From Promethearchaeota archaeon (GTDB taxonomy: Archaea > Asgardarchaeota > Lokiarchaeia > Sigyniarchaeales > SOKP01), in NCBI GenBank assembly GCA_016839705.1, contig JAEOTR010000048.1:24779-88778 (forward strand): 64,000 nt of DNA, written 5' to 3'. Each line of letters opens with the position of its first letter. The stretch's first letter is position 1. The translations under genes and the position numbers were made by a program. The notes below the pieces were generated by a model. The model was not told the origin of the DNA and searched no databases. It saw nothing but the letters and a program-made list of their open reading frames with translations. Of the stretch, positions 49,759 through 61,250 are shown one piece after another.

Positions 49759-49802
49759 ACTCTAAAAGGAGGTTTTAAACAACTTTTTTTTTAATTATTT
49801 TT

Positions 49803-49977: not shown

Positions 49978-52900
49978 ATGAAATATCCTCATATTAAATC
50001 AATTGTAAAGAAAAAAAAAGGAATAGTTATTCTAGTTTCTATCTTTATTATATTATTTTTCCTTAACATACCTAATTTTTCTATGATTAGTTTTAACAAT
50101 CAAAAACTAACTACTGATAAATCAAAAAATTTTAGGAATCCTAATATCTCTTCAGACGGTACAAATTCAAGACCTTTACTAGTATATCAACATACCACCA
50201 TTTCTAACATCTATTACCCTCTTTCTTTACCTTCTGATATAAGTTTCACCTTAATAGAAGGATGGACTTCAAAAAATGTTACTATAACTTATGATGGAGT
50301 ATCACATCAAAAAGATTGGGTAATAAATGGTACATTCCCTACAGGTGAAGCCCCATGGGAATATTATGACAATAATTCGAATTTTATTAAAGAAGCTTGG
50401 CAAGTGATTGATGGTCAAGATTGTGTTGGAATCACAATAAACAAAGGTCAAAGCTTTCTCCAAGGAGATTATAGTTATTTCGAAGAAAATTTAACTATTC
50501 ATGAACCATCAGCATTAAATACGTTAGCAACCTTATCTATGGATTATTATTTTATTCACGAATTAGGAGTTTCATCTAATAATATTAGTACTTTTGTATC
50601 TATTGATATTGAAGGGGAAGAAAAAAGCACTGAAGCAAAATTTATTGATTTAGTTGAAGAATCTTGGAGTGAGATAAGTGTAACCTATGACCTTTCTGCT
50701 TACAATCAATTGATTCATGGTAATAATGAAAATATTACAATAAGAGCAGGAGTTATTACTCAAAATGATACTAGTCAAACTCCATCAAGTAAAGATCAAA
50801 GAATATTTTTTAACAATATACAATTTACCGTTTGGACTAAACCTAGCTTACCAAATTTATTAATCGCTAATGATATAGATAATAATTATAATTTCGATTT
50901 TTATAATTATACTAACAGTACTTTTGGTAAAGGGAGCGCTTTTATTAATGAATCAATTATTAAAAGCGGAAGTAGTGATATTACGTTCACAATTTTAAAA
51001 AATAATACATTTACTGAGGAATTTGAAGTCCATAACATTACCATTACATCAGAAGCAATAAAAATCTTTAATTCAACTTTAAACGGGCAAGAAGGTAGTC
51101 TCTATATTAATAATATAAATGTAGATTGGCGAACTGAATGCTCATTCTTCATCCCTTTTGGATATATAGATAATTGGGTTGAAATATTTAAACCAGATGA
51201 TTGGAATACAACTTCTATCCTAGATGGTTTTGGGGTTGATACAAAAGGAAGTTGTACTGGTATAACTCTTGGTTCAGAGAGAATAATCATACCGAATGGA
51301 GTTTTAAGCCCAGGGTTATGGACACTTGAGTTTACTAGCTCGAATTATATCGTTGAGGGAGGTATCATTGTTTGGAATGGAACTTTTTTTAATGAAGAAT
51401 CGAGTATTGCAATTGGAGATATATTTCAAATCAACGCAACGTTAAATAATACAGTCCCATTTGCTAATACGCAAGTAAATTGTACTATTAAATATCCGAA
51501 TGGTACTATTTTCTGGCAAATGAGTAAAACACTAGGATCTTACAACATTAATTTTGGTGATTTTACTGTTGGACTTAATATGTCCGTAGGAAATTATCAG
51601 ACAACATTAGTATGGACAAATAACCAATCTCAATCTGATAGGGATAAAGTTGGCTTCTTACAATTCGGATTTGAAGTGTGGCATCATACAAGTCTCACAG
51701 CCGTAAATGATCTTGAAGAGAAGGTTTCGGGAGATCCTTTTCTTATGAAAGTAAATTTCAGTGATATTGATTCAAATTCATATGTAGATTTTGCTACAGT
51801 TACCTTTAATTCCACTTTTGGAGCCTCTGGTGATATGATATACTTTGGTTCAGGAATTTACGTTGCTGATTTAGATATTAGTGGTTTATCATTGGGTAGT
51901 TATTATTTCTCATTCAATGCTTCAAAACAATATTACGAAAATCAAACTATAATGAATTTAGTTCATTTAAGAATTGTTTCACAACCATTAGCATTAGATG
52001 TTCCTCATGAAGTTATAAATGCGGATGCGAATAGCTATGCTATTTGCCAAGTAAATGTCACTGGGGCGATTTCTGGCTCTTTGATAACTGGGAGTGTTAA
52101 TGTAACTACTGATTGGCAAAAAAATTATACAATTATTGATCATCTTAATGGTTCTGTAACACTTAATTTCTCTACAAATCATCTACCACTTGAAGGTATT
52201 ATTGAAACATATACAGTGACTATATTTGCTAATAAAATCAATTATAGTATTACTTCAGGGTTCATATCTATAGCAGTACATCCTATTCCTGCTGTAGTAA
52301 ACGTCAATACATCTATAGTTGAGGTTAAATTGTATGAGAATTTCTCATTAAACTTAAATTATACTGTTGGTGAATCAGGTGAATTAATTAGTGAAGCCAT
52401 ATTAAATGTATCTTGGGTATCTTCCGTTAACATTTTCCCAAGTGGAAATAACTATATAATTAATTTTTCTACAACTGGTCTTAGTTTAGGAAATTATATT
52501 GTGTTATTGAGATTAAACCATCCCGGCTATGAAACAGCTTTCAAAAGTGTTTATGTGACCATTTTACCTCTTGAAATTAATGTAGAAACAATTGAATACA
52601 ACAATACGATTGAAGTAATCGCTGGAAGCTCTTATTTAATAAGTATACGTCTTACTGAAGAAGGTTCTGGAAATTTAATTGAAAATGCTAACATAACCTA
52701 TTCATGGAGATTTGAATTTGGAGAGGTTACGAATGTTGGAAGTGGGATTTATGAATTGATGTTACATATTCCTGAAAGTGCTGATGGTGCCTATATTATA
52801 GATATAATAATTATATCTGAAGATGTAGAGCTTAAGAATCGAAATTTTCCTCTAAATATATACGTTTTACAAAAACCGACTCCAAATTACCTGATATGGA

Positions 52901-53742
52901 TAATTTTAGGAGTTTCAATAGCCATAATCGGTGTTTTAAGTGCTTTAAGTTTAAGAAGCTATGTGATCGCCCCGCGTAAGAGAAAGAAAGAACGACTATT
53001 TATGAATACAATACAAGTTTTTAAAGATGTTAAAAATATTCAAGCGATAATGCTTATTCATAAGGAAAGTGGGATGCCATTTTTCACTAAAAATATCTCT
53101 GGATTCGATTTTGAAGATAATTTTCTAATTTCTGGTTTTATTCAGGCAATTACGTTATTTGGGAAGCAAATGATTAAAGGTGAAATAATAGATGAAAAAA
53201 AAAGTAAACATAGAGCCTCCTATTCCAAAACTATTACGGAATTGGATTTTAAATTTTTCAGAATCCTCATATGTGACTATTTATCATTAAGAACTGTATT
53301 GATTACTAAAGGTGAATCATCGGTCAGATTAAAAAAGCAATTTCATTTAATGACAGTGGAAATAGAGGCAAAATATGGAGAAAAAGTAAGTACATTCCAG
53401 GGAAAAGTCGATATAATTCAATCAAAAATTGATACACTACTAAATGAATTCTTATTTTTATATTACCAAGAACCATTTAAATTAATAGATGATGCGAGTT
53501 ACATGAGATTTCTGAAAAAAGGTGGGGAATTACAGGCAATAGAGTCCCGAATCCTTAATGTTATAATCTCTGTAACTAAATTAAATAAAGAATTTACTAT
53601 TAATAGGATAATTGAGGAAATTGATGAAAAGGACGTTGATAAAATCTATGGTGGTCTACATACGCTCATTCAAAGAAATATAATTATTCCCGCTACTCAA
53701 AAGGACGAAGATTCACATCCCTTATTAGGTGGATTGAAATAA
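49978..53742 (+). CDS. Large secreted/TM protein with Ig-like ectodomains and cytosolic longin-like + winged-helix-like tail
   Basis: Signal-anchor (KKKKGIVILVSIFIILFFLNI), N-glycosylation-rich beta ectodomain, TM (YLIWIILGVSIAIIGVLSALSL), cytosolic IQAIMLIHKESGMPFFTKNISGFDFEDNFLISGFIQAITLFGKQM...; ORF opens at 49801 but M60 (49978) likely start. Confidence 0.85.
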   Translation: MKYPHIKSIVKKKKGIVILVSIFIILFFLNIPNFSMISFNNQKLTTDKSKNFRNPNISSDGTNSRPLLVYQHTTISNIYYPLSLPSDISFTLIEGWTSKNVTITYDGVSHQKDWVINGTFPTGEAPWEYYDNNSNFIKEAWQVIDGQDCVGITINKGQSFLQGDYSYFEENLTIHEPSALNTLATLSMDYYFIHELGVSSNNISTFVSIDIEGEEKSTEAKFIDLVEESWSEISVTYDLSAYNQLIHGNNENITIRAGVITQNDTSQTPSSKDQRIFFNNIQFTVWTKPSLPNLLIANDIDNNYNFDFYNYTNSTFGKGSAFINESIIKSGSSDITFTILKNNTFTEEFEVHNITITSEAIKIFNSTLNGQEGSLYINNINVDWRTECSFFIPFGYIDNWVEIFKPDDWNTTSILDGFGVDTKGSCTGITLGSERIIIPNGVLSPGLWTLEFTSSNYIVEGGIIVWNGTFFNEESSIAIGDIFQINATLNNTVPFANTQVNCTIKYPNGTIFWQMSKTLGSYNINFGDFTVGLNMSVGNYQTTLVWTNNQSQSDRDKVGFLQFGFEVWHHTSLTAVNDLEEKVSGDPFLMKVNFSDIDSNSYVDFATVTFNSTFGASGDMIYFGSGIYVADLDISGLSLGSYYFSFNASKQYYENQTIMNLVHLRIVSQPLALDVPHEVINADANSYAICQVNVTGAISGSLITGSVNVTTDWQKNYTIIDHLNGSVTLNFSTNHLPLEGIIETYTVTIFANKINYSITSGFISIAVHPIPAVVNVNTSIVEVKLYENFSLNLNYTVGESGELISEAILNVSWVSSVNIFPSGNNYIINFSTTGLSLGNYIVLLRLNHPGYETAFKSVYVTILPLEINVETIEYNNTIEVIAGSSYLISIRLTEEGSGNLIENANITYSWRFEFGEVTNVGSGIYELMLHIPESADGAYIIDIIIISEDVELKNRNFPLNIYVLQKPTPNYLIWIILGVSIAIIGVLSALSLRSYVIAPRKRKKERLFMNTIQVFKDVKNIQAIMLIHKESGMPFFTKNISGFDFEDNFLISGFIQAITLFGKQMIKGEIIDEKKSKHRASYSKTITELDFKFFRILICDYLSLRTVLITKGESSVRLKKQFHLMTVEIEAKYGEKVSTFQGKVDIIQSKIDTLLNEFLFLYYQEPFKLIDDASYMRFLKKGGELQAIESRILNVIISVTKLNKEFTINRIIEEIDEKDVDKIYGGLHTLIQRNIIIPATQKDEDSHPLLGGLK

Positions 53743-54554: not shown

Positions 54555-55592
54555 ATGGGAACTTTAGATTTATTACTAGGATTATTCTTTTCATCAGAAG
54601 ACAGTATTATATATGAAAAGATTAAACTATCTAAAAAAATATCACAAACAAATAAACAACACATAAAGCAATTACCTTTGCGGTTTCTTGGACCTTTATT
54701 CATGACGTTAGCTTATGATGCTGAAAAAAAATGGAATATTAATTTTATTGAATCGACATTATCATCAAATCAGGAATATATTGTTGAAGAAACTTTTATG
54801 CAATCATTCATATGTCTTAATTCTTCAGTTGATGAAGGAGATAATATGACTTATCTCTTTGCGTTTATTGGATCTCCATATACAGAAGATCCTAAAATGA
54901 TATATGAAAAAATGAGTAAATATATTCATCAAAGTATCATTCAAGGAAGATTTGTAGCCCAAAAGACTTATGGGGTTGCGTTTAATTATGATAAATTCGT
55001 AAATGGAGAGTTAAAAAGAGGTGTAAAATTGATAAATCACTCATTAGGATCTCCAAGAAAGATGCACTGGGAAGAAAAAAAAAAATATTATTCAGTAGGA
55101 TTAATAGAGAGAAAAAAAATGGGAGATTATGTTGAATCTAACTTATATACATTTGATACTGATGATCCATTAAGAACAAGGTCTTTAAACGCTATTCCTT
55201 CCTACTATTTGATGGCAATATTACCTAATTACTTTGAAACTCGTATAGTTGAAACCTTAAAGCTATTTGAAAAAACAGAAATTTATCCTAACATTAGAAC
55301 GATAAAATTAAGTAACTCTAATAGTGAGGTTTTATATATAGAAGAATTTTTAATTGAGAATCAAATCAGAAAGAGCTATGGTTTAATACTAATTTCAACA
55401 AATGAAGAATTCTCAGAAAGTTATGATATTTCATTTTTTAAGAAAAAATTAAGGCTCCTTTTAGGTAAGAAGAAGAATTTTGAAGAAACTGTCATTGAAA
55501 TAAATTCAAGAATTAACCCGTTCTATAAATGGAGTACTAATTCTGAAGAAACACTTAGAAATATTATAGAATTACTCGATAGCAAAAATTAA
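54555..55592 (+). CDS. Hypothetical protein
   Basis: 345-aa ORF; no recognised motif; paired with following ORF. Confidence 0.65.
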   Translation: MGTLDLLLGLFFSSEDSIIYEKIKLSKKISQTNKQHIKQLPLRFLGPLFMTLAYDAEKKWNINFIESTLSSNQEYIVEETFMQSFICLNSSVDEGDNMTYLFAFIGSPYTEDPKMIYEKMSKYIHQSIIQGRFVAQKTYGVAFNYDKFVNGELKRGVKLINHSLGSPRKMHWEEKKKYYSVGLIERKKMGDYVESNLYTFDTDDPLRTRSLNAIPSYYLMAILPNYFETRIVETLKLFEKTEIYPNIRTIKLSNSNSEVLYIEEFLIENQIRKSYGLILISTNEEFSESYDISFFKKKLRLLLGKKKNFEETVIEINSRINPFYKWSTNSEETLRNIIELLDSKN

Positions 55593-55618: not shown

Positions 55619-56620
55619 TTGGAAAAGATCGAATTCAAGCAATTGTTTAAGATTGAAAAAGAAAGATTATTATGGAATTACCAGAGAATAAATCGTATGT
55701 TTAAAAATTTAGAACCTACAGAGATCATAGCTAAATTCTTAATAAATCAATCAGTAGAATTTTCCCCCAATAGAATGATAGATATACTCAATTATTACTC
55801 ACCTAAAATTAGGAAAGATAAAACATTATTAGATTTTGCATTTGAATGGGTTCGAGCGAATAGAATTCGATTTGATTATAAGAAATTTATAAATTTAGGG
55901 ACATATGAAGACCAAAATAGTGCCATCGATGATTCCATTTTTCTTTTCTTTTTAGATTATGATAATTATATTAGAGAATGCTTAATAGAAAATATAAGTG
56001 AACTTGAAATTTGCGCGTTATATGAAATATTCTTTAATCCTAATCAAGTAGATTCTACAAATATGGACGCTTTCTTGAAAAATAAGGAGTTAAAAGTACA
56101 CACAATTTTTAAAGGAAAAGAAAAAGTAAATACTAGTATCTTTACATTACGAGAGGGTTTATCAGCGATGATCAAGAAAGATTATAATGAATTACACTCA
56201 TCAAAAGTCAAAATAAAAAGTGATCAGCAAAAATCAGGCAATGAAGTTTTATCAACAATAACAGAGTTCGATGGGACAATGTTAGAAAGATTGGTTAAAT
56301 CATACTGCTTTAACAAACGGAAAATAGTTGATAGGGAACTTGAAAACTCAATTTCTAGGTTTTTATCTTCTTTTTTCAAATTTGGCCAATTTTATAAATA
56401 TGAAGATTTTAAAGATAAATTGATTCAAAATTTAACAGATAGTTTATATTCTGGATTAACAGAAAATCATAAGTTTATTTCATTAGATATTCTCAATTCT
56501 GATAATTTATTTAATTTTGAAAAAACTGTAGAAACACAAAAATTAGATGGTTTGGCTTGGATTAAGGATTTAATCCCAATTTTAAAAGAATTTGCTGTAA
56601 AATTCATTGATAGGTTATAA
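55619..56620 (+). CDS. Hypothetical protein
   Basis: 333-aa ORF with TTG start, 26 bp after the previous stop. Confidence 0.6.
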   Translation: MEKIEFKQLFKIEKERLLWNYQRINRMFKNLEPTEIIAKFLINQSVEFSPNRMIDILNYYSPKIRKDKTLLDFAFEWVRANRIRFDYKKFINLGTYEDQNSAIDDSIFLFFLDYDNYIRECLIENISELEICALYEIFFNPNQVDSTNMDAFLKNKELKVHTIFKGKEKVNTSIFTLREGLSAMIKKDYNELHSSKVKIKSDQQKSGNEVLSTITEFDGTMLERLVKSYCFNKRKIVDRELENSISRFLSSFFKFGQFYKYEDFKDKLIQNLTDSLYSGLTENHKFISLDILNSDNLFNFEKTVETQKLDGLAWIKDLIPILKEFAVKFIDRL

Positions 56621-56808: not shown

Positions 56809-57579
56809 TTATTTAAATCCTTGACAGAATGAATCCACATTTTTAGGTAATACTTCATGGTTGTACCCTCCCTCCAGCAAAGCAAATCGTCTACCTTTAC
56901 TTAATTTTTCGGAATATTTTTTCATTAAGCTACCTAATTCATGATAATCTTCAGGATATAATTTATTACCCCAGTCTTCGATTCCTTCATCAAATCCTGC
57001 ACTAGCAACAAAAATATCAATATCTTTTAAATTTTGCATAAATTTTTCCACTTCTTTAATGTAATTGACATTCCCACTTGAGCTTGGATTTAATATTTTT
57101 ACTTTAAATCCATCGTTCCTATTTTTGAGAATGTTCAATGTCCCGTCACCAGTATGAAGATCAAAATCTAACACAAAAGCAGTGGCAATTTTTCCTTCTG
57201 AATATAATTTCAGTAAGCTTATACTTATATTGTTGAAATAACAAAATCCCCAGCATGAATCTGCTGAAGCATGGTGCCCTGGAGGACGAACTACGGCAAA
57301 GGTTGGATTTTCGTTATAACCTTCTTCAGCAGCTAAAATTGAACCCCCTGCAGCTAAAGATGCTAACTCAAACAATAGTGGTTCTCTCTTAATATAGTTA
57401 AAATGCCTTTCCGAATGAGCTCGTAGTATATCTTCTTTCTTCGCAGGCTTGGGTTTTATAAATTCATATTCTTTTCTTTTGGATAATAAATTAACAATTC
57501 CCTCTAAACGACCTGGTTCAGCCGCAGGATCCCTTGCATAATCTGAATTAAAATACCGTTCATGAAATACAATCTTCAT
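56809..57579 (-). CDS. Histone deacetylase / AcuC-family deacetylase
   Basis: EPGRLEGIVNLL, VRPPGHHASADSCWGFCYFNN, LDFDLHTGDGT, ASAGFDEG, LEGGYN. Confidence 0.93.
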   Translation of the reverse strand: MKIVFHERYFNSDYARDPAAEPGRLEGIVNLLSKRKEYEFIKPKPAKKEDILRAHSERHFNYIKREPLLFELASLAAGGSILAAEEGYNENPTFAVVRPPGHHASADSCWGFCYFNNISISLLKLYSEGKIATAFVLDFDLHTGDGTLNILKNRNDGFKVKILNPSSSGNVNYIKEVEKFMQNLKDIDIFVASAGFDEGIEDWGNKLYPEDYHELGSLMKKYSEKLSKGRRFALLEGGYNHEVLPKNVDSFCQGFK

Positions 57580-60665: not shown

Positions 60666-61250
60666 TTATAAGGGTTTTGCCAAAATTGCTTTAACTCGTA
60701 ATTTATCAAATAAACTGGTCGTTGCTGGTTTAATTAGGCACACGGTGTCTGCACCACGTCCAGTACCACCTATACAAATAATATCTTGTTCAATATCTTC
60801 TATTAGACCAGCATCCACCGCCATGATTGCAATTTCCATACAAACTTTAGTGCCTTGGCTAAAAATAGTCCTAAAATATTTAGCCATTAATTCTACAGGC
60901 CCCCATTGCTTCAAAGCGATTCTAAAACTCCTTTCTGTACCAGCAAAAGCATGAGTTCCAATTAGAAATTTAATACCTTTACTCTTAAGAGCAGTGATTT
61001 TATCTTCAGGAAATTCCTGTCTTTTGTCTGGTCCCATGAAATAATACGAATGAGTAACAACCACAAGATTATAAATTGTTGGATCAAAAATTTCGGTAGA
61101 TTTCTCAGCAGTGGTACCAGTGGTACTTGCCATAATAATATCTTTGATGCCAAACTGATCAGCATATTTTTTAGCAATTTCTAACGCTTTGTCAGTATTG
61201 TGAGGGCCACCCCTCTCAAAATAAGTCACTTCTAAATTTAAATCTCCCAT
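60666..61250 (-). CDS. Pyruvate kinase alpha/beta (C-terminal)-domain-like protein
   Basis: GGPHNTDKALEIAKKYADQFGIKDIIMASTTGTTAEKSTEIF; CIGGTGRGADTVCLIKPA. Confidence 0.8.
   Translation of the reverse strand: MGDLNLEVTYFERGGPHNTDKALEIAKKYADQFGIKDIIMASTTGTTAEKSTEIFDPTIYNLVVVTHSYYFMGPDKRQEFPEDKITALKSKGIKFLIGTHAFAGTERSFRIALKQWGPVELMAKYFRTIFSQGTKVCMEIAIMAVDAGLIEDIEQDIICIGGTGRGADTVCLIKPATTSLFDKLRVKAILAKPL

Follow-up and report, generated by a model that had tools for sequence, protein, structure and literature searches.

The gene and its membrane topology

In the window, the 64-kb stretch of DNA analyzed here, one reading frame is open to position 53742 from either a TTG at 49801 or an ATG at 49978. 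Since the alignment with the ortholog L048 begins at the ATG residue, we prefer ATG 49978 as the start. The open reading frame that a first-pass annotation had placed at 49978-53742 is thereby borne out, and we regard it as a genuine gene for a Lokiarchaeal two-span protein. Searches of the full protein and of its tail against Pfam and NCBIfam gave zero significant family matches; a match to TcA_RBD (E 0.019 over 34 residues), far under the cut-off, was dismissed as due to chance. The features of the gene are as follows.

49978..53742, + strand: whole gene, 1,254 amino acids, two-span surface protein with a predicted longin-like and winged-helix tail (open reading frame, hydropathy, ortholog L048)
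50023..50079, + strand: N-terminal hydrophobic segment, residues 16-34, after KKKKG (hydropathy; also in full-length relatives)
50086..52887, + strand: ectodomain, residues 37-970, predicted all-β, 39 N-glycosylation sequons (sequon count, AF2, Foldseek)
51166..52875, + strand: predicted tandem Ig/macroglobulin-like β-sandwich modules of about 100 residues each, limits approximate (AF2 strands; ortholog insertions)
52888..52947, + strand: transmembrane (TM) helix, residues 971-990 (hydropathy)
52948..52998, + strand: basic stop-transfer SLRSYVIAPRKRKKERL (sequence; Lys+Arg asymmetry in the family)
52984..53037, + strand: predicted juxtamembrane helix, tail residues 2-19, with conserved Q-x-F-x-D-x-x-N (AF2; conservation)
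53038..53454, + strand: predicted longin-like domain, tail residues 20-158, β1-β2-α1-β3-β4-β5-α2-α3 (AF2, Foldseek, profile comparison)
53125..53151, + strand: L-x-S-G-F-x-Q-A-I motif in helix α1, the peak of conservation in the family (conservation)
53530..53700, + strand: predicted C-terminal winged-helix domain with an acidic helix-turn-helix, tail residues 184-240 (AF2; charge)

Hydropathy analysis finds two membrane-length hydrophobic segments, at residues 16-34 and 971-990. The former, directly following KKKKG, is a signal peptide or signal anchor, in line with the first-pass annotation. For the latter, the side of the membrane on which each flank lies can be read from two asymmetries across 44 relatives from named Lokiarchaeota genomes. 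Their ectodomains hold 1,368 N-x-S/T sites versus 638 expected and their tails 39 versus 59, while Lys+Arg averages 0.8 in the 20 residues that lead into the TM helix and 6.7 in the 20 that follow; the tail of the window protein itself has one such site versus 1.0 expected. Because of these asymmetries, the ectodomain is predicted to lie outside and the tail, of about 250 residues, in the cytosol. This comparison could equally have placed the tail outside; instead, it agrees with hydropathy in supporting the TM helix, basic stop-transfer and cytosolic tail proposed earlier. The label "outside-to-inside receptor" is therefore sound for the predicted architecture, and as a function it is a prediction only.

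The ectodomain, of about 935 residues, is rich in Asn, Ser and Thr. Its 39 N-x-S/T sites compare with 17.7 ± 3.6 in composition-preserving shuffles, none of 2,000 of which reached 39. Archaea glycosylate such sites on the outer face, and the ectodomain is probably sugar coated. An AF2 model of residues 37-971, built from 21 sequences, is all-β (pLDDT 76, pTM 0.40), and Foldseek matches it to tandem Ig proteins, complement/macroglobulin stacks, titin and S-layer β-sandwich proteins (E about 1e-15 to 1e-13). The Ig-like, β-strand character ascribed to this region thus finds support in the model, though the whole-length TM-scores of these matches are low (0.1-0.2). We conclude that the ectodomain is, as modeled, a series of tandem β-sandwich domains whose matches point to no specific ligand class. 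Ortholog ectodomains vary by inserted units of about 100 residues, as judged by BLAST offsets; we took the repeat size from these insertions because a BLAST self-comparison found no internal repeats at an E value of ≤1. A paralog gives weak matches to MG4 and Big_1.

Two adjoining genes lie downstream of the receptor gene (54555-55592 and 55619-56620), both without a Pfam family; homologs of the first are present in 15 of 39 relatives, at most two per genome and all inside the same family. Farther on are a histone-deacetylase-family gene (56809-57579), which adjoins the receptor gene in several relatives (L042, L043, L046, L047, and L048), and a gene for a stand-alone pyruvate-kinase C-terminal-like domain (60666-61250; PF02887, slightly below its cut-off).

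Predicted fold of the cytosolic tail

The AF2 model of the tail, built from 46 natural relatives (pLDDT 79, pTM 0.77), begins with the juxtamembrane helix, followed by the longin core, a linker, and a final part whose three helices and one strand are ordered as in a winged helix. In tail numbering, the core consists of strands 20-27 and 33-38, helix 48-64, strands 85-89, 94-100 and 103-109, and helices 115-137 and 147-158. The segment IQAIMLIHKESG, with which the first-pass annotation had begun the tail, corresponds to β1 of the longin-like domain and is preceded by the juxtamembrane helix. A Foldseek search of the PDB ranks the longin domain of Sec22b first (E 1.3e-4, TM-score 0.72 on the target), followed by TRAPP subunits, LAMTOR roadblocks, AP-2 sigma, AP-1, zeta-COP and SRX; the MK-D1 protein Roadblock2 (9jq8) is also among the matches, and roadblocks rank close behind longins. 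All of the top matches are GTPase- or traffic-linked proteins. The proposal of a longin/roadblock fold with a winged helix at its end appears largely right, since modeling returned both parts.

We use the name "longin-like" for two reasons. In the model, the tail mixes a leading helix, as in roadblocks, with a second C-terminal helix, as in longins (compare PMC10933270). Moreover, longin models are reached by sequence only through relatives of the tail: neither the window tail nor the 26 family tails matched a longin family at E values up to 1, and a PDB sequence search with the single tail or the tail profile gave nothing meaningful, its hits being confined to a desaturase, a designed binder and designed helical bundles. 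Such a direct sequence match marks a limit of detection; it is no part of what defines the longin superfamily structurally. The tail is thus tied to longins by its fold and, via its relatives, by sequence. Conservation peaks in helix α1, where G52, F53 and A56 are invariant in 26 diverse tails; in roadblock proteins, the central helix is the dimer interface (PMC10933270).

A receptor family and its proposed link to Arf-type GTPases

A tail profile built from the 26 sequences found 28 matches in the window's own genome (E ≤ 0.01) and, at an E value of ≤1e-6, detected the domain in 139 of the 148 Asgard genomes sampled, including 45 of the 45 best assemblies. A scan of GTDB contigs, with a narrow query made from the closer tail set, placed all 44 of its 44 loci in "Ca. 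Lokiarchaeota" or Lokiarchaeia metagenome-assembled genomes; the receptor architecture with a sequon-rich ectodomain is also found outside the class Lokiarchaeia (L137 and L139). Eight single-span receptors in the window's own genome share the tail, and their ectodomains fall into at least four unrelated types by BLAST: the window protein with L170; L171 alone; L172 with L175; and two receptors of L173 with L174. BLAST relates the ectodomains solely within a type, while the tails of all eight align. It is because ectodomains of at least four unrelated types, every one sequon enriched, share one tail that we read these proteins as a receptor family. Four-match clusters on a single contig occur in three other genomes (G005:C30, G017:C71, and G019:C13), with frames of 755 to 779 amino acids, the length of the short-ectodomain receptors, which suggests recent expansion.

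The same domain occurs in other settings in this genome. It follows about ten TM helices in L176:3303-5522, a protein without a Pfam family, and five in L105. A divergent version follows TPR repeats, Pfam confirmed in L100, and ends proteins similar to L100 (L097, L101, L104, L107, L108, and L112). Small soluble proteins also carry the tail domain (L096, L098, L102, and L106), and a soluble relative with a Cys-rich start, L177:2771-4144 (contig C52), has the same longin and winged-helix domains; its C-terminal end weakly resembles MIT, a domain of ESCRT-linked proteins (E 3.7e-4, short of the curated cut-off). Frames of L177-like length (about 455 to 475 amino acids) recur among the matches in many related genomes. 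Finally, in L103 (the same as L140), the longin-like domain precedes a P-loop GTPase.

This last arrangement provides an indirect link to GTPases. The longin-GTPase fusion family of L103 (L140-L169) has a match in 58 of the 58 Asgard genomes searched. In its deeper lineages, the GTPase half carries the canonical motifs GxxGVGKT, WDxxGQ and NKQD; members match Pfam Arf, down to an E value of 1.7e-21, and a sequence search with the family profile also finds Arf1 structures. In many Lokiarchaeal members the GTPase half is degenerate (NFQD instead of NKxD), suggesting a pseudo-GTPase branch. Comparing the receptor tails with the N-terminal domain of the fusions, hhalign gave probabilities of 98.7% (E 3e-16) and 98.9% (E 2.5e-17), whereas 16 alignments of other families, compared in the same way, reached 0.4% or less; the relatives scored 96.9% (TPR-linked domains) and 68.8% (small soluble paralogs). 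Among the fusion members, one hits the first longin of FUZ/MON1/HPS1 at 32.4 bits (curated cut-off, 26.1), a second reaches 21.5 bits, below the cut-off, and others give weak matches to SNARE longin models. Judged by these profiles, the tail domain is homologous to the longin domain fused to Arf-type GTPases, from which we infer that the receptor tail may itself be coupled to a GTPase. Lokiarchaeum was reported to have 41 longin-like domains, five of them fused to Arf-like GTPases (PMC4917890), and the structures and domain fusions of Asgard roadblocks, longins and GTPases, as well as dimeric GTPase platforms, have been described (PMC10933270).

Other observations weigh against this link. Several longin proteins work independently of GTPases, SNAREs being a case in point (PMC10933270), and gene order gives no support, although a neighboring GTPase gene would be supporting evidence only and is no requirement for a GTPase regulator. 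The window's own genome has 68 Ras-superfamily matches in 3.36 Mb, none of them a GTPase gene in the 64-kb window or its contig, and of the eight receptor genes a single one has a Ras-superfamily gene within 5 kb, about the rate expected by chance at that density. Some syntenic loci of the sister group have GTPase genes, one for a Ras GTPase upstream and one for the Rag-like c3 at a distance of about 7 kb, but we dropped the neighborhood argument: this is one inherited locus with mixed strands and intervening genes, and the receptors of the window's own genome are unenriched. By profile comparison, c3 is unrelated to the tail. Gene order was found to fail in pairing GTPases with their regulators in Asgards (PMC10933270). 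The conserved neighborhood of the sister receptors (L170 and relatives) also includes a small Cys-rich protein downstream and a small soluble longin-like and winged-helix protein (c7).

Interpretation and comparison with known systems

We propose that the window protein belongs to a modular Asgard family of receptors or adhesion sensors, in which a glycosylated β-sandwich stack is joined through a TM helix to a longin-like and winged-helix tail that recruits or switches GTPases, and we give this reading a probability of about 0.5. It builds on the predicted topology and fold, the family expansion, the variable ectodomains on a conserved tail and the homology to GTPase-fused longins. Ligand binding or clustering outside would draw the tails together; helix α1, with its L-x-S-G-F-x-Q-A-I motif, would then mediate longin dimerization, the partner being a second tail or the longin part of a longin-Arf GTPase. 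Such a platform could recruit a small GTPase of the Arf/Rab type to the plasma membrane or alter its nucleotide state, under the control of the ectodomain, by analogy with the SRX longin of the signal recognition particle receptor on the Arf-like SR-β and with the longin pairs of TRAPP and Mon1-Ccz1, which hold Rabs. The winged helix may serve as a protein-protein or dimerization module. The more specific proposal, that these proteins form an Asgard class of outside-in signaling proteins with swappable glycosylated ectodomains and a common tail through which Arf/Rab-type GTPases are recruited to the plasma membrane or switched there, is more tentative still. If true, it would provide a pre-eukaryotic membrane-receptor counterpart of the longin platforms SRX, TRAPP and Mon1-Ccz1.

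The strongest competitor, which we nevertheless consider rather unlikely, is that the protein is a surface adhesin or S-layer-associated anchor whose ectodomain is structural and whose tail ties the envelope to the cytoskeleton or to ESCRT-like or coat-like scaffolds, without GTPase signaling. The ectodomain model fits titin-like arrays and S-layer proteins no less well than receptors, its module number differs among orthologs, the soluble longin and winged-helix paralog has the weak MIT-like match described above, and SNARE longins with non-GTPase roles are known (PMC10933270). However, one tail on eight receptor genes with at least four ectodomain types fits varied sensing better, and the fusion of the tail domain to Arf-type GTPases also speaks against an anchor of this kind. 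It is improbable that the protein is instead a cargo or trafficking receptor whose tail, comparable to a longin SNARE or an adaptor subunit, would be a platform for sorting the protein's own ectodomain into forming membrane buds or protrusions: the tail model does match Sec22b, AP-2 sigma, AP-1 and zeta-COP, but its longin is followed by no SNARE motif and preceded by the TM helix, the reverse of longin SNAREs, and Lokiarchaeum has been listed as being without coat proteins and SNAREs (PMC4917890). Least probable is a membrane-tethered transcription regulator, with a DNA-binding winged helix and a longin that dimerizes or holds it at the membrane, since, despite the winged helix predicted by AF2 and weak matches of soluble longin relatives to TrmB (E 0.0048) and HTH_47 (E 0.0025), α2-α3 of the winged helix is acidic (mean net charge of -2.5 in 26 family members) and not the basic helix-turn-helix that such a regulator would need, which argues against DNA binding, and each HTH family hit a stray tail at most.

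Returning to the receptor reading, its interest lies in the many Ras-superfamily GTPases and dozens of longin/roadblock domains that Asgards hold: the receptor family offers a testable way into their control and points to protein-GTPase pairs for pull-down experiments. The receptors may be sensors wired to switches that were later put to use in eukaryotic membrane traffic. The family also suggests that surface sensing could have become tied to the GTPase machinery ahead of internal membranes. The longin superfamily and the longin-Arf fusions of Lokiarchaeota were already known; the architecture of a longin-tailed surface receptor is probably new. In the literature searched, which took in few subscription journals and had bioRxiv outside its coverage, such receptors were not described, and the word "transmembrane" is absent from the main text of PMC10933270.

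Among known systems, the roadblock/LC7 proteins (LAMTOR, MglB, and Asgard roadblocks) share the core fold and leading helix of the tail model, whereas the tail has the extra longin C-terminal helix and lacks a roadblock family sequence match. The tri-longin RabGEFs (MON1-CCZ1, HPS1-HPS4, and FUZ-INTU; PF19036), whose first longin is recognizable by sequence in the longin-Arf relatives, are soluble eukaryotic heterodimers with three longins per subunit, while the receptor tail has one, without a PF19036 match of its own. Sec22b, the best structural match, is also a single-span membrane protein, but it has no ectodomain and runs from longin through SNARE motif to a C-terminal TM helix; the receptor order is opposite, with the TM helix before the longin, the winged helix after it and no SNARE motif between longin and TM helix. 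SRX of SR-α, in complex with the Arf-like SR-β (PDB 1nrj), provides a membrane longin with an Arf-family GTPase and matches the tail structurally (E 1.6e-3), a likeness of structure without a demonstrated sequence relation. SR-α has neither TM helix nor ectodomain, the TM anchor being in SR-β. The longin-Arf fusions of Lokiarchaeota (PMC4917890) have a longin that is homologous to that of the tail (hhalign probability, 98.7%) and shares its S-G-F-[LI]-x-A-[IF] helix. In the fusions, however, a soluble longin is attached directly to the GTPase, whereas in the receptor it is borne on a TM helix below a large ectodomain, with a winged helix instead.
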